A stretch of 64,000 nt of DNA from Lacipirellulaceae bacterium (GTDB lineage: Bacteria > Planctomycetota > Planctomycetia > Pirellulales > Lacipirellulaceae). Numbering within the stretch: position 1 is the first letter of the stretch; each line of letters begins with the position of its first letter. The translations under genes and the position numbers were made by a program. The notes beneath the pieces were generated by a model. It searched no databases and had not been told where the DNA came from. It saw only the letters and a list, made by a program, of their open reading frames with translations. The stretch is from the NCBI GenBank assembly GCA_040218535.1, contig JAVJRG010000005.1, forward strand, positions 1,178,001 to 1,242,000, read 5' to 3'. This document shows positions 23,582 to 50,279 of this stretch, one piece after another.

Positions 23582-26500
23582 TTACGGAGGCGTCGGAATC
23601 GGATTAGGCTCGTCAACTACAGTGCCTGAGGTGACAACAGTGCCCGTGTTATTGGTATCTACGTCAGCCAGGTTTGCGACGCTAAAGTTACCATTCACTT
23701 GATTGAGCTCGTAGCCATTGTTAGCAGCGTTGCCTGGGGCAGCAGTGTTACTGCTGCCGGCTGTTCCGTCGCCTCCAAGGTTCAGCTTCAAGTCGGCTGC
23801 AGCGTCGTCGACCTGGATGCGGACGGGAACACCTGTGGCTGCATTGAGGTTGACGAACGTGTTGTCGAGGACTGTTACATTCACGTCGCCTGTTCCTTCA
23901 GCCCGGATGTCAGAGGTAAACGCAGTCGGGTCGTCGTTGCTAAAGACATTATCTTCGACCAGCAGATTAATCGTCTTGGCAGTGCCTCCTGATGTTGTGA
24001 GCAGGAAGGCCTCCGCACTGCCGGAATTCGTCACCGCGTTATTCGTCATCCGAACATTTGAAGTCGCGGCACTGTTGAAGTCGAGTTCCATGGCTGCCAA
24101 TGCTGAAGTGACATTCATGGCGTTGATTGTGACGTTCTCTGAATTAGTGATGCTGATTGCGGTGCCCGTGATGTTGGCCAAGGTGCCTCCATCGCCAGCA
24201 GTTGTTCCGCCTTCCCCAACGGTGATGATGCCGCCTGTTACGTTGTTGAGGACAATGGCCTGAGCCGCACCGTCGGCGGAAACGCTCTGGAAAGTCGCTC
24301 CATTGGCGGTGATGCTCGAATTCGAGATGTCTATTCCAGTGCCGGTCGTCGTTGTGATCGTGTTCGTAGCGCCGGTCACTTCCAAGGTTTGCGTGTTGGC
24401 GACCAAGAGGCCGGTACCACTGGTCGTGTTGATGTTGAGATCTTCGAAGCTGGTTTCGCTATTCGTGTTGCCAGTCACAGTGACTGCGTCGTTCGCGCCT
24501 GTGGTAAGATCGAGCTGCCCCGAGATGCGTGTTCCGCCACCAGTGTTGTCGAGCACCTGGATGCCGGCGCCTGTGTCAGTAACGGTAGCATCGACGACCA
24601 CCGTTGCGCGTGCGTTGTCAGCAACCACGATCGAGCTGCTAGCGCTGTTCGTAATTTCACCCACGTAAGTGACGATGGCCGAGACCGTTCCGCCCGTCGA
24701 GCTGCTGTTGCGAACAACCAGTGCGTCGCCTGTGGGGTTTGTGATGGTCGCGTCGCTGAATACGAAAGTTCCCTGAGAACCATTCAGGATGTCGATGCCA
24801 GCGTCACCGCCGTTCATCGTGATCTGGTCGTTAAAGCGATAGGCCCCGTCAGCATTGTTGAATTGCAAGCCATCACCATTATTGACGTTGAAGACCCCCG
24901 CACCGGTGGTTGCTTCGTTAAAGTCAAGCGTCCCATTGTGCCCCGAAGAAACGGCCAATGCGGACGCAGCGTTGGCTTGATTGACTTGCCCGGTGAAGCT
25001 CAGTGATCCATTACCATCCTGGACATTGATCGCCGTGCCGGTTGGATCCGTAATCGTGGTGTCTGTTAGGGTGATCGTGCCGTCGGTCCCGTTCAGCATG
25101 TCGATTCCGGCGTCGCCGCCGTTTAGTTCAACAGGCCCATTGATCACGTACTGACCATCGGCGTTGTCGAACTGCAAGCCGGTCCCGTTTTGGGCATCGA
25201 CGATCAGGGCTCCAGCGGCTGAGCCTGCTGGGAGGACCATGTTGACGGTACCCGTGTGGCCGCCGTCTGCAGAGAAGGCGGCTGCGCTGCTGGCTGCCGC
25301 ACCTTGAGCGATCTGGCCAATCAGATTCACGTTCGCGTCACCACCGGTGATTTTCACACCAGCTTCACCCGCGGCATCGCCAGCGTCTGTCACGGTGACG
25401 TCGGTCAGATTGTACGTTGCATTCGACCCAACAAGTTCGACACCGTGGCTGGCTGTATTGTCGACCGTCACGTTGTTCACGTTGAGCGTCCCCGTGCCGG
25501 TTGCTTCGGAGCGAATGCCTACGTCGCCATTTGTAATTTGGAAGTTGTTCACTTCCATCGTCGTGGTATCAGCAAGTGAGCCAGCACTTACCTGTACTGC
25601 AGCGAGCGGTGCACCGTCAATCACGGGAACCGCACCTGCACCAGCCCCTAGGGTTGTTTCAGGAAGTTGGAAGACGCCAAAGTCAAGCGAGTTGATCGTG
25701 TGCACGATGCCGCCGCCCTCGCCTAGGAAACGCTGATCGGTCTGCAGGGTGGCAGACTCGCCAGTGTGAGTGCTGCCGGCATGGACAAGAACGATATCGT
25801 CTTCCATCGAGTTGGCGAAGATGTCGTCCAGGCTAGTTAGCGGGCTCTCGAATGTTCCGTCCCCAGGAGCCGTGGCGGTGCTATCGACATGAACGATGCG
25901 TTGCACATCGCCATTCTCGTCTGTCATGTCGGTAACGCCCATAAAGAACGTACGCTGTTGGGTGGCAACGTACATCGGTCGATACACAGGTTCTCGCATG
26001 CGATCGTTGATGTTGTGTAGCTTGCTTGAGGGACCAGAACTGACTCGACCAGGTGTCCAGATGACTTGAAATGTCGTCACTGTGCCAAACTCGTCGTCGT
26101 CGCTGATGCCGAGATCGATAGCCAGATCGTTATACACGTAGCCACGAGCACCCAGCTTGTAACCTCCGGTACTCACCTGATTCCCGTCGAGCTGGTACCC
26201 CCCCGCGTATCCCCAGAAATTTGTCTCAGGTACGCGTAGGGCAATCTCTCCCGTGACGTTTGATAGCGAGACATCCCCACGAGCACTTTCTGATCGTCGA
26301 ATGACATTCCCCGTGTAGAAGAAGTCGTTGGTCATGGCCGTGTCACTGATCTTGATTCCGTTTCCTGGAATATTTGCGTTGAAGCGGAGATCGATCATGT
26401 CACCCAAGGTCTCGAAGCTGATACCACCTTGATTGAAGTAGTTCTCAAGGTTGGTCTCCATACCGTCATACCATCCGCTGACGCCGAAGATGCGAGTTCC

Positions 26501-26878
26501 ACCCGCAACGGGGTCCTCGTACCGCCAGCGTGTTCCGACACCAAGATTCATGCCAAAGTCGCCGCTGTTGCTTTCACGCCATTGCGCTTCAGCGAAGTAG
26601 ATGCCATAGTCGGACGGACGAGCGAGGCGGCCGCCGATGGCAGTTTCACCCTGTTCTTGAGCATAGCCATTTGTGCTGTGCCAGATCCGCAGTGGCGTCG
26701 TCCCGAGATTGATTCTGCCTGCACGGGAGGTGGAGTACGGTGTCCCGGCTTCTTGGCCATTCGCCACGCCGCCGCTAACTGCTAGCAGCCCGGCGGCAAC
26801 CCAGGCAAAGCCTAAGATGGCAGCGCGGATCGTCTTGAGACAACTCTTCTTGGCCTGTGGTATTGCTTGACTCGACAC
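23582..26878 (-). CDS. Large secreted beta-helix protein with inverse-autotransporter-like N-terminus
   Basis: 1098 aa, GTG start. Signal peptide, then ~residues 45-290 resemble the beta-barrel domain of inverse autotransporters (intimin/invasin group): GEKAIGG-like TAIGGRLARPSDYG, NLGVGTRW, FGVSGWYDG, WGYAGGYQLDGNQ, ARGYVYNDLAIDLG. After a linker, ~residues 335-1060 form a right-handed beta-helix of short Asn/Thr/Gly-rich turns. Two longer modules repeat (GLQFDNADGQYVINGPVELN and GLQFNNADGAYRFNDQITMN, each followed by GGDAGID). The C-terminus is PNPIPTPP with no PEP-CTERM tail. Probably a surface adhesin or passenger; the barrel assignment is moderately sure. Confidence 0.75.
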   Translation of the reverse strand: MSSQAIPQAKKSCLKTIRAAILGFAWVAAGLLAVSGGVANGQEAGTPYSTSRAGRINLGTTPLRIWHSTNGYAQEQGETAIGGRLARPSDYGIYFAEAQWRESNSGDFGMNLGVGTRWRYEDPVAGGTRIFGVSGWYDGMETNLENYFNQGGISFETLGDMIDLRFNANIPGNGIKISDTAMTNDFFYTGNVIRRSESARGDVSLSNVTGEIALRVPETNFWGYAGGYQLDGNQVSTGGYKLGARGYVYNDLAIDLGISDDDEFGTVTTFQVIWTPGRVSSGPSSKLHNINDRMREPVYRPMYVATQQRTFFMGVTDMTDENGDVQRIVHVDSTATAPGDGTFESPLTSLDDIFANSMEDDIVLVHAGSTHTGESATLQTDQRFLGEGGGIVHTINSLDFGVFQLPETTLGAGAGAVPVIDGAPLAAVQVSAGSLADTTTMEVNNFQITNGDVGIRSEATGTGTLNVNNVTVDNTASHGVELVGSNATYNLTDVTVTDAGDAAGEAGVKITGGDANVNLIGQIAQGAAASSAAAFSADGGHTGTVNMVLPAGSAAGALIVDAQNGTGLQFDNADGQYVINGPVELNGGDAGIDMLNGTDGTITLTDTTITDPTGTAINVQDGNGSLSFTGQVNQANAASALAVSSGHNGTLDFNEATTGAGVFNVNNGDGLQFNNADGAYRFNDQITMNGGDAGIDILNGSQGTFVFSDATITNPTGDALVVRNSSSTGGTVSAIVTYVGEITNSASSSIVVADNARATVVVDATVTDTGAGIQVLDNTGGGTRISGQLDLTTGANDAVTVTGNTNSETSFEDLNINTTSGTGLLVANTQTLEVTGATNTITTTTGTGIDISNSSITANGATFQSVSADGAAQAIVLNNVTGGIITVGEGGTTAGDGGTLANITGTAISITNSENVTINAMNVTSALAAMELDFNSAATSNVRMTNNAVTNSGSAEAFLLTTSGGTAKTINLLVEDNVFSNDDPTAFTSDIRAEGTGDVNVTVLDNTFVNLNAATGVPVRIQVDDAAADLKLNLGGDGTAGSSNTAAPGNAANNGYELNQVNGNFSVANLADVDTNNTGTVVTSGTVVDEPNPIPTPP

Positions 26879-30044: not shown

Positions 30045-32216
30045 ATGGGGGGGAACAACGACAAGAAGTGTCTCATGCTGCGCCTACGGTGTAGCCTTGC
30101 GCTATGCGCTGCCCTCATTTCGGGCTGCCGCTCTCCCTCCCAGATCGCCTTTTCCGAGCCCGGCTACCAGCCTTCGCAAGTCGCACCATCACATCCGTCG
30201 TCGGTGGAGCAATGTAGCTACGTTTCTTCAGAAACGCTTCCGCAACCTGCGAACGCTGAAGCTTCGCCTTTTGAGAGTCCTCCGCTAGCGAATCTTGAGT
30301 CGCTCTCGATTGACGAGGCTCTACAATTCGCCCTGCAGCACTCCGATATCGCTCGCTCCATTGATGACGATGAGGTCATTGTGGAGCAGGCTACCGGGTA
30401 CGACGCACCGATCTCTCAGGAAGCGGTTCGAGAAGCACTAGCCGCGTTCGATACTAGTCTTGAGACGACGTTCGCCTGGAATCGATTCGAGGGGCCGCCC
30501 AACTCGTTCTTCGGACCGGGCATCGATCGTGAAGACCGTCGTGACGAAGCCACCTTTGCCACGGGACTGACGAAGCTCTGGCAACGGGGGACGCAGACGC
30601 GTGTCGGCTACAACCCGACACCCGGCTATCTCTTCTTCCCCGCGGGCTCCACCGGTTTTAACCCCACACATGTCGCGGCTTTCGAGATCGAAGTCCGTCA
30701 ACCTGTGCTGCAAGGGGGTGGGCTGGAAGTAAACAGCGCGCCGATTTACGTGGCCCAACTGCAAGCGGATCAATCTGCCTGGGAATTTAAAGAAGCTCTC
30801 TTGGAGATGGTGCAGAACGTCGAGACCGCCTACTGGGAACTGTACGCCGCTCGCGTGGCACGCCAAGTGTTGGAAGAGCAGGCACCATTGATTGAAGAAG
30901 TAGTGCGTGTCGAAGAAGCCAACCTTGCCGTTGACCGATCCGTGAAAGCGGATCTGGCGAGGGCACGGTCGCAACTCTACCGGCTCCAACAACGGACGAT
31001 CGAGGCTGATCGGACGATTCGCGAGCGTGAACTTCGTCTAGGTAGCCTGATCGGCCTCGGAGCCAACTGCCGCGTCTCGATTGAACTGTCGACTCCGCCT
31101 CCCACCGCTCCAATGTTCGTCGACAAACACGCTTCGATCCAGCGAGCGATCAACCAACAGCCGCTCTTGGTCCAGCGCAGAATTCGCGCCCGAATTCGCG
31201 AACTAGAAACGCGGGTCGCAAGCAACCAGTACTTGCCTCGATTTGAGTTACAGGCACTCTATCGGGCCAACGGTCTGGAAGACGATCTTGGGAACGCCCT
31301 GAAGATGATGGTCGAACAGGATTTCTACGATTGGCAGTTCGGGGCAGCTTTCTCGGTGCCACTGGGACGAAACGGCCCCCGTGCCCGTTTGCGTGCCGCA
31401 GAGTTACAGCTCGCGCGAGAGCAAGCCCAGCTTCGCGAACAGGTTCGTCTGACGGTGTTTCAGATCGACGAAATCCACACGCGAATCGAAGCGCTACATG
31501 CAGGCTATCGAGCCGCCAAGCAGCGTGAGAAACAAGCGAAGTTGTGGCTAGAAGGTGCCCAGATTCGCTACAAGAATCCACCGCCGGCGGGACGGAGCGT
31601 CAACTGGATGTTGGTGGCTCTCAACGATTTGCTTCTCGCGCTGCAAGAATCCTCCGATGCTGCCGAGGAACGAGCGCAGTTGTTGGCGGACTACAATGCG
31701 GAATTGGCGCGCCTGCAGCAAGTTGAGGGGAATCTGCTCAACAAATACAACGTCTGTCTGCAGGACGAGCCACTCAGCGAGGACCTCATCGAGCAGCTTC
31801 CGGCCATAGCCATTCCCAAGCAAGAGCCCAAGGTCGAGGAATTGGAGAAGGGGAAGGAAGGCAAACTTCAAGATCAAGACAACAGCGCATTCATGCGTGT
31901 GTCACCCGAGATCGTGTTCGAGGGAGCACCAGAGCCCCCGCAACAATCTGAACTCGAGTCCTTAGAATTGCTCCCTCAAGTGGGACCCCCCCAGGCGACT
32001 GCTCGAATTAGAGGTATCACACCTGTCGAAAACGGCGTTTCCGCTGACTGGACCGTTCTTCCACCGCTAGAAGAAATCCCAAGTGGAGAGGCCCCGACGC
32101 TGCAAACGCCCAAATCAGGTTTGGTTGATAATCCCTACTTCAGACCAAATGTCAGCACTGCGGTGCGTCCCGGAGAAGGGAACGAAAGTGGACCCCGCGA
32201 TGTAAGTCGCCGCTAA
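30045..32216 (+). CDS. TolC-family outer-membrane efflux protein
   Basis: 723 aa; the ATG at 30075 is an equally good start. The N-terminus has a lipobox (LISGC), so it is probably a lipoprotein. Two OEP repeats follow (~residues 85-590) with long helices (VQNVETAYWELYAARVARQV, LRAAELQLAREQAQLREQVR) and barrel strands, as in TolC/OprM. The last ~120 residues are a Pro/Glu-rich extension seldom present in TolC. Forms the outer-membrane channel of a tripartite export system. It converges on the M50-HlyD fusion gene, its likely adaptor. Confidence 0.9.
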   Translation: MGGNNDKKCLMLRLRCSLALCAALISGCRSPSQIAFSEPGYQPSQVAPSHPSSVEQCSYVSSETLPQPANAEASPFESPPLANLESLSIDEALQFALQHSDIARSIDDDEVIVEQATGYDAPISQEAVREALAAFDTSLETTFAWNRFEGPPNSFFGPGIDREDRRDEATFATGLTKLWQRGTQTRVGYNPTPGYLFFPAGSTGFNPTHVAAFEIEVRQPVLQGGGLEVNSAPIYVAQLQADQSAWEFKEALLEMVQNVETAYWELYAARVARQVLEEQAPLIEEVVRVEEANLAVDRSVKADLARARSQLYRLQQRTIEADRTIRERELRLGSLIGLGANCRVSIELSTPPPTAPMFVDKHASIQRAINQQPLLVQRRIRARIRELETRVASNQYLPRFELQALYRANGLEDDLGNALKMMVEQDFYDWQFGAAFSVPLGRNGPRARLRAAELQLAREQAQLREQVRLTVFQIDEIHTRIEALHAGYRAAKQREKQAKLWLEGAQIRYKNPPPAGRSVNWMLVALNDLLLALQESSDAAEERAQLLADYNAELARLQQVEGNLLNKYNVCLQDEPLSEDLIEQLPAIAIPKQEPKVEELEKGKEGKLQDQDNSAFMRVSPEIVFEGAPEPPQQSELESLELLPQVGPPQATARIRGITPVENGVSADWTVLPPLEEIPSGEAPTLQTPKSGLVDNPYFRPNVSTAVRPGEGNESGPRDVSRR

Positions 32217-32227
32217 GAGCACTGCTT

Positions 32228-32328
32228 AGGACCAACGGAAAAATAACTTCTCCATTGCCCCCTCGCCCCTATGGGGAGAGGGCAGGGTGAGGGGCTAAGA
32301 ATACGGAAGTTGTTAATCCGTCGGTCCT
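32228..32328. repeat. Palindromic element, family E copy 2
   Basis: Arms AGGACCAACGGA and TCCGTCGGTCCT, with ATAACTTC/GAAGTTGT inside, enclose CCCCTCGCCCC, GGGGAGAGGG and AGGGTGAGGGG. Same core as 11125-11234. It fills the gap between the convergent tolC-type and fusion genes and may end both transcripts. Confidence 0.75.
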
Positions 32329-32332
32329 TGGC

Positions 32333-34822
32333 TTACCACCACCAGAATTCCGTTCGGAGGTAACGCCTCGCCCGATCAAGTGCGATGCCCCCCACCGAGC
32401 GCTGCTTGCCGTAGATGCGTGCGTAGCCGGTCATCCCCGAGAGCAGTTGGGCGTCTTCCTGGTTGAGTTTGCAATAGACGATCACCTTGCCAGGCACGAC
32501 GGTATTGGGAACCGTCGGGGCAGCGGAAGCCGTGGGCGTGGTTTCCATTTTCGCCGCCGGTGCTGTCCGCACGACTTCCGTTTCAAAGGTGCGCATCGGC
32601 ATGCTTCGCGCGCGAAGTTCTACGCGTTGGCCGGGCATGACTTTCAAAACATCAGACTCGGAAATGGCAATCTCGGTGGCCATGTCGGCAAGGTCCTCGA
32701 TAATGCACACCACGGTTCCCGTTGGTACATACTTGCCGTTCAATTCGTGCATGTGAGGTGTGGTCACGATGCCATCGACGGGGCTGCGCAAGACGATCCG
32801 GCTCTTGAGATGCTCAAGGTACTTCAGTTCCTCGGTGAGCCGCGCGAGGCGTGCTCTCTCAGCCTCTGCTTCTTCAGGATGTCCACCAGCTTCGAGGAGC
32901 GTGAGCTTCGATCGCTCGTCGGCAAGCTCCTTCTCACGACGTGCTAACTCAGCTTCCGCTTCGACGGTTCCCTTGGCCACCCGAGAACGCATCTTCGCGT
33001 GGGCGAAGTCGTGCTTCAGAGTTGAGATGCGCAGCTTCGTCTTTTCGCTGAGGAGCTGTTCTCCCGATAGGGCCTGCTGCTGGTGCAACTTCTCAGAATG
33101 GGCGAGTGAAAGCTCTCCGAACTCGACCTCGGCTTCGTGCTGCAGGATTTCGTGTTTGATTTGGATGATCTCCTCGTCGTAGGAGGCCTTAGCGCTTTTA
33201 AGATCTTGCTTCCCCAAAGCAACCCAGTTCTCAACACGCTTGACTCGCAACCTCTGCTCAGCGACTTCTTCGGGGCGAGGGCCGACTTCGAGACGGCGTA
33301 GATTGGCTTTGGATTCGCGTATCTCCGCGTGCTTCTTCGTCAGGTTGACTTCGAGGTCGGGGATTTCAATGCGGGCAATAATATCGCCAGCGTTAACGCG
33401 GCTCCCTTCGGAGACGATAATCTCCTTTAGGAACCCTGCCTCCAGCGCGTTGACTTCAATGTGGGTCGTTGGTCGAACCGAGAAATTTCCAGACACCCGA
33501 TCTTGCATCGGCACAAGGCTGGCAACGACAGGAATGCCGAGGAGCACGAGTAACCAAACCAACGCCCTACCTCTACGTTTTGCGAACATTTTTGTCATCT
33601 CCCCGGCGGACAAACCGCGTAATAAATTCTTGCCGATGACTAACGGCATCAACACTGCCACGAAGATTCCGATGGGTCCAAGCTGCACACTGCTTAAGCT
33701 GTGCAACTTGATCAGTCCGTAAACCATGCCCCAGAGAATCGTGGCGATAAACAGCCAGCTTGCCATTCCATAATAAAACAAAAATCGACCATGAGGCTCA
33801 GGTTTCGGACGTCTCCCGCCCCAGAGAAGCCAACGAACGGTCTGCATGAATCGTTTCCGGCCACGGTCGAAGAGATTCGGTAGCCGCATGGCGTCGCTGA
33901 GCAGGTAGTACCCATCTAGCTTAATCAGCGGATTGAAATTAAAGAAACTCCGCCCCCCACAGATGGTTGCGGCCATCCAAGCGAAGTAGTTCAAGGAAGT
34001 TTCAGGGGCTGAGGCCCGCCAAACGAGGGTGGCGACAGCCCAAATCACCAGATCAGAGTAGCCACCTGCCGCTCCCACCCACAAACGTTTTCGCCGCTCA
34101 CGGAACAACCAAGCGTCGGAAACATTGCAGTAAAAACAGGGCATAAAGAACAGCGCCAAGAAACCAATCTCGTGGACTTCTCCGCCATAGTGCTTGCAGG
34201 TGAGCCCATGAGCGAATTCATGAATCAGCGTCACAAAGAAGATCAGCACCCACACCAGGGCGATCGTCTTCCAGGTGATTGCCTCCGGGAACGAGCTGAT
34301 CCAGTGGGCACGGTTGACATAAGCGGTTGCCGCGGCGAAAAGCATCAGTGCGATACTGAAAACCACAAAGCCTTGTGTCCACAGAAAACGCACCTTGGGC
34401 TCGAGCCACGTTAAGATCGGATCCGGATCGAAGAACGGGATTCGCCAATTCAGCAGTGTTTGGTCACTCGCTTGGCTTCTTTTGGCTTTCTTGTGGGGAG
34501 TCGGAGTGACCGCTTCCGAATCCTTCCCCACGACGGGGTCTTGAAGTAGTCCGCGACGGCCGGCGAGATCGACAAATTCTTTGACATCTTTCGCTGACAC
34601 CGATTCTTTGAATCGTGTCTCGAACGCTTCTCGAATAGCAGCCCCGTCATGCTCACCGTCTAATAGCGAGAAGAGATAATGCTCGTGTTCGCCGACGTGA
34701 AAGAATTTTCCCGAGTCGGGGTCCTTAACAACATAGTTCCCGGGGGATGAGTCTTCTCGAATGACAAGAGTCGACCGCAATCGAGGACGAACTTCAGGTT
34801 GCCGCAACGTCGAGGAAGGCAT
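32333..34822 (-). CDS. Fusion of PqqD-like domain, M50 site-2 protease and HlyD adaptor
   Basis: 829 aa. Residues ~15-100 look like a PqqD/RiPP-recognition fold (YVVKDPDSGKFFHVGEHEHY, LLDGEHDG, GRRGLLQD). Next comes a multi-pass M50 (site-2 protease) domain (~130-430) with HEFAH at 201-205 and the second metal motif NPLIKLDGYY at 297-306. After a final membrane segment (~420-440) an HlyD adaptor follows: lipoyl half-motif VNALEAGFLKEIIVSEGSRV, long coiled coil (~485-670) and beta-barrel part. Proteins of the YydH type join a peptide protease to export. No ABC ATPase is nearby. Only 37 bp separate it from the ParB-like gene. Confidence 0.88.
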   Translation of the reverse strand: MPSSTLRQPEVRPRLRSTLVIREDSSPGNYVVKDPDSGKFFHVGEHEHYLFSLLDGEHDGAAIREAFETRFKESVSAKDVKEFVDLAGRRGLLQDPVVGKDSEAVTPTPHKKAKRSQASDQTLLNWRIPFFDPDPILTWLEPKVRFLWTQGFVVFSIALMLFAAATAYVNRAHWISSFPEAITWKTIALVWVLIFFVTLIHEFAHGLTCKHYGGEVHEIGFLALFFMPCFYCNVSDAWLFRERRKRLWVGAAGGYSDLVIWAVATLVWRASAPETSLNYFAWMAATICGGRSFFNFNPLIKLDGYYLLSDAMRLPNLFDRGRKRFMQTVRWLLWGGRRPKPEPHGRFLFYYGMASWLFIATILWGMVYGLIKLHSLSSVQLGPIGIFVAVLMPLVIGKNLLRGLSAGEMTKMFAKRRGRALVWLLVLLGIPVVASLVPMQDRVSGNFSVRPTTHIEVNALEAGFLKEIIVSEGSRVNAGDIIARIEIPDLEVNLTKKHAEIRESKANLRRLEVGPRPEEVAEQRLRVKRVENWVALGKQDLKSAKASYDEEIIQIKHEILQHEAEVEFGELSLAHSEKLHQQQALSGEQLLSEKTKLRISTLKHDFAHAKMRSRVAKGTVEAEAELARREKELADERSKLTLLEAGGHPEEAEAERARLARLTEELKYLEHLKSRIVLRSPVDGIVTTPHMHELNGKYVPTGTVVCIIEDLADMATEIAISESDVLKVMPGQRVELRARSMPMRTFETEVVRTAPAAKMETTPTASAAPTVPNTVVPGKVIVYCKLNQEDAQLLSGMTGYARIYGKQRSVGGIALDRARRYLRTEFWWW

Positions 34823-34859
34823 GATGGCGATTTACCTGACTGAGCAATAGCTCCTTGGC

Positions 34860-35324
34860 CTACTCGTCATCAACTTTCGCGAAGGTCTGAACCGGTTTCC
34901 GCAGCAAGATTTCCTTGCTTTCTTCTTCGGTCAGTATGTAGGCAAAATAAGGCTTGCCAAGTTCCAGGCAGCGAGCCGCACGGTGATTGCCGTCAATCAA
35001 CACATGGGCATGGATCTCCTCACCATCATCGGCATGACAGAAGACATGAGAGATGATGCCAGGCTTTGTCGGGTCGACATGAGAAACGTGGTCTCGATCG
35101 ATGCGACTATTCTCGACGCTGAGCCGCACGCTTTCTTCTTCGACCTCAACAGGCTCGCGTCCGTCCTGCACCATTTCCATGGCGAGCTCCACATCGAAGA
35201 TAAAGTTCTTTCCCCAGTATTTATAAGTTGCGTCGCGGTTTTTCTTGCGACGACAGCACTCAGGGACCTTTTGCTTTTTCTTGGACTTCGAACTCTTCAA
35301 AGCTGATTTCTTTGCCTTCGACAT
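34860..35324 (-). CDS. ParB/sulfiredoxin-fold protein
   Basis: 154 aa from the ATG at 35324; the frame is open to 35429 without similarity. Lys-rich N-terminus (KKSALKSSKSKKKQK), two Cys in PECCRRKK, then a ParB/Srx-like core whose nucleotide-binding loop reads HVLIDGNHRAARCLELGKPY. The same loop (D-G-x-H/T-R) occurs in free-serine kinases of the SerK/SbnI type as well as in ParB. No DNA-binding helix-turn-helix follows. It lies directly upstream of the protease-exporter fusion in one probable operon. Kinase activity is only a hypothesis. Confidence 0.72.
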   Translation of the reverse strand: MSKAKKSALKSSKSKKKQKVPECCRRKKNRDATYKYWGKNFIFDVELAMEMVQDGREPVEVEEESVRLSVENSRIDRDHVSHVDPTKPGIISHVFCHADDGEEIHAHVLIDGNHRAARCLELGKPYFAYILTEEESKEILLRKPVQTFAKVDDE

Positions 35325-35385
35325 GGGCACGGCCTCGTTAAAACGTCGCAAACTTGAGAAAAGAAAAACTGAGATGAGAATAAAT

Positions 35386-35419
35386 CCGGCGCTGGAAAGC
35401 AGTTGCTCTCCAGCGCCGG
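35386..35419 (-). terminator. Hairpin between repeat protein and ParB-like gene
   Basis: CCGGCGCTGGA (35386-35396) pairs exactly with TCCAGCGCCGG (35409-35419). On the minus strand ATTTATTCT follows, a weak T-rich tail. It would cut most transcripts after the repeat gene and let some reach the downstream genes. Confidence 0.6.
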
Positions 35420-35477
35420 TCGACATCAATCATCACTTCACAATCAGATGTGAAGTTGCAGCCGGGTAGCGCCTCCC

Positions 35478-36128
35478 TCAGCTACTACCACCTTTGCCGC
35501 CACTGCTTCCACCACGGCGGCCTCCGCTGCTTCCACCCTTACGGCCACCGCTGCTGCCGCCTTTGCGACCGCCGCTGCTGCCGCCCTTACGACCGCCGCT
35601 GCTTCCACCCTTACGGCCACCGCTGCTGCCGCCTTTGCGACCGCCGCTGCTTCCACCCTTGCGACCACCGCTGCTGCCGCCTTTGCGACCGCCGCTGCTT
35701 CCACCCTTGCGACCACCGCTGCTTCCGCCCTTACGGCCACCACTGCTGCCGCCTTTGCGACCGCCGCTGCTTCCACCCTTACGACCACCACTGCTGCCGC
35801 CCTTGCGACCGCCGCTGCTACCGCCCTTACGGCCACCGCTGCTTCCACCCTTGCGACCACCGCTGCTGCCGCCTTTGCGGCCGCCACTGCTGCCGCCCTT
35901 GCGACCACCGCTACTTCCACCCTTGCGGCCACCGCTACTGCCGCCCTTACGGCCACCGCTGCTGCCTCCCTTGCCGCCGCTGCTACCTCCTCGGCCACCA
36001 CTGCTTCCGCCTTTTCCGCCGCTGCCCGATCCGCCTTTGCCACCACTGCCGCTACCGCCGCCGTGATGCCCGCCCCACTTGCTTGGCGCAATTCGCTCCT
36101 CCAAGCGTGTAATTTTAAATCTACCCAT
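35478..36128 (-). CDS. KGGSSGGR-repeat protein with leader-like N-terminus
   Basis: 216 aa. A good Shine-Dalgarno AGGAG (36137-36141) stands 8 bases before the ATG. The N-terminus MGRFKITRLEERIAPS is followed by WGGHHGGG and Gly/Ser turns, then 19 consecutive exact KGGSSGGR units (residues 53-204) and a short tail. The DNA units vary at third codon positions (GGA/GGC/GGT, AAA/AAG, CGT/CGC/CGG) while the protein stays fixed, which argues for selection on the peptide. Highly basic. It has no ordinary signal peptide. Position ahead of a PqqD-protease-exporter fusion suggests a secreted or processed substrate. The L-E-x-R pattern recalls N-termini of planctomycete extracellular proteins. Confidence 0.8.
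   Translation of the reverse strand: MGRFKITRLEERIAPSKWGGHHGGGSGSGGKGGSGSGGKGGSSGGRGGSSGGKGGSSGGRKGGSSGGRKGGSSGGRKGGSSGGRKGGSSGGRKGGSSGGRKGGSSGGRKGGSSGGRKGGSSGGRKGGSSGGRKGGSSGGRKGGSSGGRKGGSSGGRKGGSSGGRKGGSSGGRKGGSSGGRKGGSSGGRKGGSSGGRKGGSSGGRRGGSSGGKGGSS
35494..36066 (-). repeat. 24-bp tandem repeat tract coding KGGSSGGR
   Basis: The minisatellite-like tract has 19 exact protein units plus imperfect ones at both ends. All three frames of both strands stay open for long stretches because of the composition, so the other frames are shadows. Unit number may vary between strains. Confidence 0.85.
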
Positions 36129-36563: not shown

Positions 36564-36626
36564 GTAAGCGGACGAAGAGGGATTCGAACCCCCGGTACCT
36601 TGCGAGCACGCCGGTTTTCAAAACCG
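36564..36626 (-). repeat. Left copy of the tRNA-Ser direct repeat (att-like)
   Basis: 63 bp matching 50185-50249 with one substitution and two one-base gaps. The match starts next to the 3' end of the tRNA and stops in the anticodon arm, as expected for an attachment site of a tRNA-targeting tyrosine recombinase. Confidence 0.75.
36569..36626 (-). pseudogene. tRNA-Ser 3' fragment
   Basis: Contains the discriminator end, 3' acceptor strand, T-arm, variable arm and anticodon loop (TTTGAAA) of tRNA-Ser(TGA) but lacks the D-arm and the 5' acceptor strand. It cannot be functional. Confidence 0.85.
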
Positions 36627-50184: not shown

Positions 50185-50249
50185 GTAGAGCGGACGGAGA
50201 GGGATTCGAACCCCCGGTACTCTTGCGAGCACGCCGGTTTTCAAAACCG
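50185..50249 (-). repeat. Right copy of the tRNA-Ser direct repeat (att-like)
   Basis: 65 bp inside the intact tRNA-Ser gene plus six bases beyond its 3' end, matching 36564-36626. The intact gene thus keeps its sequence at the island's right edge. Confidence 0.75.
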
Positions 50250-50279
50250 GTGCGTTAAACCAGACTCCGCCATCCGTCC
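50191..50279 (-). tRNA. tRNA-Ser (anticodon TGA)
   Basis: 89 nt. Acceptor GGACGGA pairs with TCCGTCC, discriminator G. Anticodon stem CCGGT/ACCGG with loop TTTGAAA reads TGA. Long class II variable arm typical of serine tRNAs, T-arm GGGGGTTCGAATCCC. Intact, unlike the copy at 36569. CCA is not encoded. Confidence 0.97.

Follow-up and report, generated by a model that had tools for sequence, protein, structure and literature searches.

A candidate leader-guided peptide maturation and export cassette with an RRE-M50-HlyD fusion in a Lacipirellulaceae bacterium

The DNA examined here, termed the window, is a stretch of 64,000 nucleotides of a Lacipirellulaceae bacterium (assembly GCA_040218535.1, contig JAVJRG010000005.1, positions 1,178,001 to 1,242,000 of the forward strand). 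It carries a basic repeat protein with a short leader, a ParB-like protein, a PqqD-M50-HlyD fusion and a converging TolC gene, and all four genes are found where an earlier note on this DNA had placed them. The four genes probably form a maturation and export cassette for a peptide that resembles the ribosomally synthesized and post-translationally modified peptides (RiPPs). The gene set, its conservation, the leader, the RiPP recognition element (RRE) fold, the protease motifs, the HlyD arm and the TolC channel are read from sequence or from structure models. Peptide maturation by an RRE and a site-2 protease is known; new here are an export adaptor built into an RRE-guided site-2 protease and a leader family that belongs to it.

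The RRE-M50-HlyD fusion

The predicted structure of the fusion has a mean predicted local distance difference test score (pLDDT) of 76.7 and a predicted template modelling score (pTM) of 0.41. Residues 11–97 superpose on RREs of lasso peptide proteins with bound leader, i.e. TbiB1 (5v1v, Z = 10.8, 85 aligned residues, root mean square deviation [rmsd] 2.6; 5v1u is likewise among the matches) and 6jx3 (Z = 10.8, 83 aligned residues, rmsd 2.2). The model thus places the N-terminal domain in the RRE/PqqD superfamily by fold, as the earlier note had supposed for residues 1–100, and binding of a leader is predicted. Lasso RRE proteins are not known to be fused to a protease-exporter and take part in other chemistry.

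Residues 182–371 superpose on E. coli RseP (Z = 10.4, 159 aligned residues, rmsd 4.0), and the HExxH and LDG motifs of an M50 site-2 protease are present in membrane helices. Residues 418–812 superpose on the adaptors EmrA, MacA, MexA and HlyD, with a Foldseek E-value = 3.4e-18 to EmrA. Both HlyD_D23 and HlyD_3 of Pfam score above cut-off, and type_I_hlyD of NCBIfam covers residues 420–756 with 100 bits (cut-off 208.65). With an RRE inside the cell, a protease in the membrane and an adaptor outside, the fusion would have the layout needed to bind, cut and hand over a peptide.

The best NCBIfam match of the fusion is daptide_HExxH (NF041824) at residues 13–398 with 206 bits, under the cut-off of 300. 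This daptide intramembrane metalloprotease model matches 13/13 fusion members. The epipeptide protease model YydH/LiaK (NF058609) gives 35.2 bits against a cut-off of 225. Thus the HEFAH/LDG protease described in the earlier note stands, but the enzyme is nearer to that of the daptides than to the YydH type named there. Among the 13 members, matches with E-values of 0.01 or better are found for M50 (PF02163) in 13 and for PqqD in seven. Since PF02163 misses the window's fusion in its own genome, searches were made with protein and alignment queries instead.

Leader and core of the precursor

The core of the repeat protein, 201 residues after the leader MGRFKITRLEERIAP, consists of 22% K/R and 77% G/S with no D or E. 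Its 20 copies of KGGSSGGR are encoded by 16 different DNA units, and because these vary at third codon positions only, the protein sequence is under selection. Nothing worth naming is found for the repeat protein in NCBIfam or Pfam scans. Long open reading frames (ORFs) in other frames over 35444–36112 look like by-products of the repeat.

Across relatives the leader mostly reads [KR]F.[ILM]..LE[ED]R[IV].P. An alignment of 23 precursors contains leader 16-mers of 22 kinds, and its invariant positions are F(-12), L(-7), E(-6), R(-4) and P(-1). Four of these (L, E, R and P) belonged to the search motif, so that their invariance proves nothing. Positions outside the motif are conserved as well, namely F(-12) and I/L/M(-10) in 22/22 leaders and K/R(-13) in 21/22.

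Cores situated beside a ParB-like gene have a K/R content of 14–39% (15 rows, 14 loci) and those elsewhere 0–3% (8 rows). Repeats of Gly/Ser/Lys (Arg, His) are present at 16/16 loci with a ParB-like gene and a readable core or tail, a count that includes two tails only (L073, L175; L and G numbers are our labels for loci and genomes) and the near-copies L077 and L078. The L082 core carries one acidic stretch in addition to basic repeats. In a sub-clade without the ParB-like gene other core types are found, mostly hydrophobic. The same leader over different kinds of core is expected if the fusion reads the leader.

Cores of L068, L069, L072, L075, L077 and L079 contain 4–10 cysteines, which in several cores come just past the predicted cut site; there is no cysteine in the core of the window. 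Beside fusions of the same class at L084, L088, L093, L135 and L137, all lacking the ParB-like gene, the cores are hydrophobic, aromatic or Gly/Val-rich, as are those of orphan leader peptides with no fusion nearby at L085, L086 and L087. MSCRAMM matches of two cores were dismissed as a composition effect of low complexity.

Conservation of the cassette

Run over 296 genomes of the order, a profile of 13 fusions yields 15 full-length matches, each in a different genome (944–1242 bits, matches listed to E = 1e-100), and the next match has 354 bits. A leader gene adjoins 13 of these 15 fusions, eight with a ParB-like gene and five without; the remaining two are those of G004 and of G029, the latter affected by a contig end. 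The second class of PqqD-M50-HlyD fusion, taken as a control, shows no small leader protein at any of 15 loci (13/15 versus 0/15, p = 2e-6, Fisher test with relatives treated as independent). The co-occurrence with leader proteins foreseen in the earlier note is therefore seen for fusions ending in LRTEFWW and fails for the other class. Three regular-expression matches at the second-class loci were dismissed: a large gene and an antisense ORF at L148, and a stretch of 13 amino acids (aa) at L142. A phylum sample of 392 genomes, partly overlapping the order set, contains two full-length fusions, that of the window and that of G632, and G632 carries a leader gene.

The ParB-like protein is rare, being found in 9/296 genomes of the order, and its profile matches 3/392 genomes of the phylum sample, including the window's own and one weak match. 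The neighborhood is uncut in seven of its eight relatives, and all seven show an adjoining fusion, TolC and leader gene. In the eighth (G029) the tail of a basic repeat protein is found upstream at the contig end, and the fusion and TolC are on another contig. A scan of named genomes gave 14 loci, five of them already seen otherwise (L067, L068, L077, L078, L079), with the fusion at 14/14, TolC at 12/14 and the leader gene at 10/14. The two loci without TolC are on contigs of only 4.1 and 3.3 kb. Three of the loci without a leader gene are L073, which starts inside the repeat tail, L071, which starts just before the ParB-like gene, and L080, where the ParB-like gene is a fragment.

Loci that lack the ParB-like gene group together in the tree as one clade (99/96) nested inside the others, which we read as one loss of this gene together with a change of core. 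A wide codon pattern for the leader was rejected for counting, as it matches in 68/296 genomes and its reversed control matches too; 30 places and 20 stretches that were read proved to be mostly chance, and counts are therefore based on the fusion.

Several loci display additional features. The TolC gene of L070 (13026–14921, minus strand) is split over two frames in the metagenome-assembled genome, by sequencing error or decay. A second-class fusion is present beyond TolC at L034 (15444–17666, minus strand) and L073 (5706–7862, minus strand); thus both classes can be neighbors. L034 (4780–8586) and L035 (6376–10265), from two families of the order, carry Methyltransf_28-TPR and TPR-PhyH proteins at the cassette. 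Methyltransf_28 scores above cut-off only in L035, and an APH domain is matched only there. Of 296 genomes, two contain full-length homologues of the TPR-PhyH protein, that of the query itself and another, and in each the gene is situated at this cassette. L071 carries an APH-type kinase gene beyond TolC.

The ParB/sulfiredoxin-fold protein

The model of the ParB-like protein (pLDDT 80.3) is confident over the core, and the fold ends near residue 141. In the VIA comparison the best match is sulfiredoxin (Z = 5.5), followed by free serine kinase (4.8) and SbnI (3.9), and ParB, Noc and KorB are also found. A Z of 5.5 alone could reflect a common arrangement; 26 of the 30 VIA rows listed carry titles of the ParB/sulfiredoxin superfamily. 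The first eight Foldseek rows are all sulfiredoxins, with an E-value = 0.05 at best. By the fold of its model, the protein belongs to the ParB/sulfiredoxin superfamily. The motif DG[NH]HR is conserved in 14/14 members; Pfam ParB matches none of these 14, and NCBIfam and Pfam show nothing worth naming in the ParB-like protein. A search of PDB sequences with the alignment gave a single match at E = 1.3, which was disregarded.

SerK, SbnI and sulfiredoxin are described as enzymes in which the ParB/Srx fold serves to bind ATP and which lack a DNA-binding domain (PMC12704722). The window's protein shares the fold with these three but no sequence match. The ParB-like gene and basic cores occur together (Fisher test, p = 3e-6, a value overstated because relatives were treated as independent; the 14 basic loci in the test include the near-copies L077/L078 and the genus pair of the window and L067), a hint that the protein serves basic cores. 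Because every basic core contains serine, phosphorylation of the core is the first idea to test.

Comparison with known systems

Daptide precursors carry an ELExMEAP leader and are encoded beside an RRE-site-2 protease, to which the authors assign removal of the leader; the motif is numbered from E(-8) to P(-1), and a step dependent on the RRE of the partner MpaB requires L(-7) and M(-4) (PMC10036551). The cassette leaders have the same L(-7), E(-6) and P(-1), and in most cases A(-2), at the same spacing (LExxxAP), but show R(-4) and I/V(-3) where daptides have M(-4)E(-3). Because the leader positions correspond to a daptide leader ending at P(-1), a cut is predicted after AP. The daptide leader peptidase MpaP/DapP (NF041824) and the window's fusion also show the same order of RRE and M50. 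However, the window's fusion scores under the NF041824 cut-off, is fused to HlyD and is accompanied by TolC, with no local ATP-binding cassette (ABC) signature. Unlike daptides with their C-terminal Thr, the window's core ends in SS and 0/15 cores beside a ParB-like gene end in Thr. None of the daptide tailoring enzymes (oxidative decarboxylase, aminotransferase, methyltransferase) is found among nine window proteins scanned. The cassette is not a daptide system.

Planctomycete loci with M50-HlyD, GAF-HlyD and a second SecA were described by Kamneva et al. (2015), who proposed secretion without an ABC transporter and suggested that the M50 protein could form a membrane passage; an OEP protein is sometimes in the locus (PMC4452313). 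These GAF-HlyD/M50-HlyD/SecA_DEAD loci share with the window's cassette an M50-HlyD fusion and the lack of an ABC transporter. A leader peptide, a PqqD/RRE domain and a ParB-like protein are not named in the locus sections of that paper. We take the second fusion class to be the class of these loci. Second-class fusions stand apart in the tree, match only approximately the first 550 of 817 profile positions and have C-termini that differ from LRTEFWW, often FNFxL. Two fusions of this class are found in the window's genome. The label GAF-type is based on one locus scanned with Pfam (L016) and on neighbor likeness, judged by eye, for the others. The window proteins scanned contain no GAF domain match, and no search was made for SecA_DEAD.

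The LEPR-8K leaders of planctomycete giant proteins (NF012209) resemble the cassette leaders by eye in an LExR near the N-terminus, but this is followed mostly by xLLA or xMLA in LEPR-8K and by xPS in the cassette leaders. LEPR-8K, a short and weak model that matches in 7/14 control genomes and scores over cut-off in one, gives 16 places at E-values of 10 or better in the window's genome, six of them over cut-off, on large proteins. The same genome also has a gene for a protein of 2635 aa whose LExR leader is RRLEQRRVLNAE (L174, 5868–13775, plus strand), directly upstream of an operon of GAF-HlyD, HlyD, PqqD-M50-HlyD and TolC (L174, L016). Beside 15 second-class loci one large LEGRRLL gene (L148) is found in addition to this own-genome case, which by a rough estimate is no more than chance.

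Diatom silaffins are Lys/Ser/Gly repeats that carry modifications. The Lys/Ser repeats of the cassette, together with methyltransferase, dioxygenase and kinase-like domains beside two cassettes, bring these to mind; this is a thought, and no homology is claimed. A literature search limited to open-licence papers found no paper on this fusion class, its leaders or the ParB-like partner.

Alternative explanations

Several results weigh against a maturation and export cassette. No ABC signature, and thus no energy source nearby, is found by motif scan in the window or in 24 loci, in agreement with the earlier note's statement that a local ABC ATPase is lacking. The signature is also absent from 63 loci of at least 9 kb. 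The motifs match an invented ABC-like test string, none of the loci supplies a natural positive, and the rest of the genome was not searched for a partner. With HlyD and TolC present and no ABC transporter signature locally, the cassette does not qualify as type I secretion. In the window's fusion Pfam PqqD (E = 1.4e-3) and M50 (E = 8.8e-4) are both below cut-off, so that the profile search proposed in the earlier note for the N-terminal domain is positive only in a weak sense, and the pTM of the model means that the arrangement of the domains is not given by it. At L076 the fusion and the ParB-like gene are present, yet a leader gene was not found on the contig stretch, of which 9.9 kb lie upstream, and the fusion of G004 has no adjacent leader gene, two such genes being situated elsewhere in that genome. 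TolC is not a fixed neighbor of the fusion, as no convincing TolC gene is found near any of the six loci that lack the ParB-like gene; one of the six, L093, shows a weak TolC-like stretch of 70 residues (E = 5e-5). A single evolutionary change underlies the association of the ParB-like gene with basic cores, since the loci lacking the gene belong to one clade.

The composition of the core, basic and free of acidic residues, and the fact that many ParB-fold proteins act on DNA, as stated in PMC12704722, would fit an intracellular DNA- or RNA-binding partner of the ParB-like protein, similar to a histone tail, with the fusion and TolC as an unrelated efflux or stress system. However, the leader gene stays beside the fusion even where the ParB-like gene is missing and the core is of another kind, and a 154-aa protein whose predicted fold ends near position 141 has no room for a separate DNA-binding domain; this explanation is considered unlikely. 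The superposition of the M50 part on RseP would also suit a site-2 protease in a regulatory role that carries an adaptor arm and cuts an anti-sigma factor or similar, with the leader protein as inhibitor or sensor ligand. Against this, the fold matches of the N-terminal domain are leader-bound lasso RREs, the leader motif is daptide-like and, as an argument only, regulation needs no HlyD arm, so that we regard such a role as very unlikely.

LExR leaders on large proteins of the same genome, recognized by the weak LEPR-8K model, raise the idea that the leader acts as an LEPR-type signal for sorting to the cell surface and is read by another machine, the fusion serving for export only. But LEPR-8K misses all seven of the small leaders compared with it even at E-values up to 10, and adjacency is specific to one fusion class (13/15 versus 0/15); a sorting signal is thus quite unlikely. 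Tandem repeats readily yield long ORFs in several frames, and the precursor could on that account be a chance ORF beside a multidrug efflux adaptor. The restriction of variation among the 20 copies to third positions, and the recurrence of a leader-plus-repeat gene in relatives that belong to several families, make this highly improbable.

Position and surroundings of the cassette

The host genome of the window is 5.36 Mb in size and shares its genus with Adhaeretor mobilis HG15A2 (Lacipirellulaceae, Pirellulales per NCBI). On the minus strand the cassette reads precursor, hairpin, ParB-like gene and fusion (Table 1).

Table 1. Features of the cassette, with positions in the window
Feature	Position	Strand	Basis or remark
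Precursor (216 aa): 15-aa leader MGRFKITRLEERIAP and basic repeat core with 20 exact KGGSSGGR copies	35478..36128	-	
Leader; cut predicted between Pro and Ser of LEERIAPS	36084..36128	-	Alignment of 22 distinct leaders; cut site from daptide numbering, P(-1)
Hairpin and T-rich tail, between the genes for precursor and ParB-like protein	35386..35419	-	Likely partial terminator
ParB/sulfiredoxin-fold protein, DG[NH]HR motif, 154 aa	34860..35324	-	
RRE-M50-HlyD fusion, 829 aa	32333..34822	-	
RRE (PqqD-like) domain, residues 11–97	34532..34792	-	Model superposition; Pfam PqqD
HEFAH zinc site, residues 201–205	34208..34222	-	H201, E202, H205 invariant in 13-member alignment
LDG of M50 second motif, residues 302–304	33911..33919	-	D303, G304 invariant in 13-member alignment
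HlyD-type periplasmic adaptor, residues 438–809	32396..33511	-	Likeness to EmrA, MacA, MexA, HlyD
Class-specific C-terminus LRTEFWWW	32336..32359	-	R823, E825, W828 invariant in 13-member alignment
TolC-family outer membrane channel, converging	30045..32216	+	Pfam OEP 9.7e-25

The hairpin displays a 15-bp stem, and the region 35330–35480 folds with z = −4.84. Hairpins of 14–18 bp with T-runs are also found at L067, L069 and L070 and are absent from six other loci examined; a T-run hairpin after the precursor gene (4/10 loci) is not a fixed part of the cassette. The ParB-like gene probably starts at the ATG at 35324 (154 aa) rather than at the TTG at 35429, which is upstream of the hairpin.

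Just upstream of the cassette, at 36567–36626, there is a 61-bp copy (97% identity) of the 3′ part of tRNA-Ser(TGA), and the whole tRNA gene is found 13.6 kb away at 50190–50279 (minus strand). The partial copy is possibly a trace left by insertion of an island at a tRNA gene. In Adhaeretor mobilis (L030) a clpB-like gene, identified by eye, follows shortly after the precursor in place of the tRNA fragment. The window also encodes a 1098-aa Asn/Thr/Gly-rich protein (23582–26878, minus strand) with no Pfam match, and a protein with a similar start is found at the same position in Adhaeretor mobilis (L030). PADLOC gave no match.

Proposed mechanism and significance

Judged from sequence, the interpretation in the earlier note is supported. 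In the proposed mechanism the newly made precursor has a polycationic Gly/Ser/Lys repeat core behind its short leader, F-x-I-x-x-L-E-E-R-I-A-P. The N-terminal RRE domain of the fusion would bind the leader on the cytoplasmic side, and the intramembrane M50 site would cleave LEERIAP behind its Pro. The same polypeptide may then dock onto TolC through its HlyD arm, so that the core exits the cell. Before export the ParB/sulfiredoxin-fold protein may act on the core, most likely as a nucleotide-dependent modifying enzyme, or as a chaperone; a serine phosphotransferase is the first guess. Once secreted, the peptide may serve as an adhesive or a coating. In this scheme the binding, the place of the cut, the export, the modification and the end use are predictions.

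A wider and rather doubtful extension is that RRE-M50-HlyD fusions are a planctomycete-wide secretion route for LExR leaders, this class handling small peptides and the GAF-linked class giant surface proteins of the LEPR type, with membrane cleavage coupled to HlyD/TolC hand-over and no ABC ATPase. If the giant LEPR proteins do share this logic, it would explain a named leader family for which no paper was found in the open-licence search.

If the maturation and export cassette is real, the leader reader, leader peptidase and export adaptor would be one polypeptide, and the coupling of maturation to export could be tested in one protein. It would suggest which protein reads a family of leader peptides in planctomycetes, and a proposed link would join a ParB/sulfiredoxin-fold protein to peptide maturation. 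One leader with swappable cores would also give a genetic handle on the secreted polycationic peptides of the phylum.

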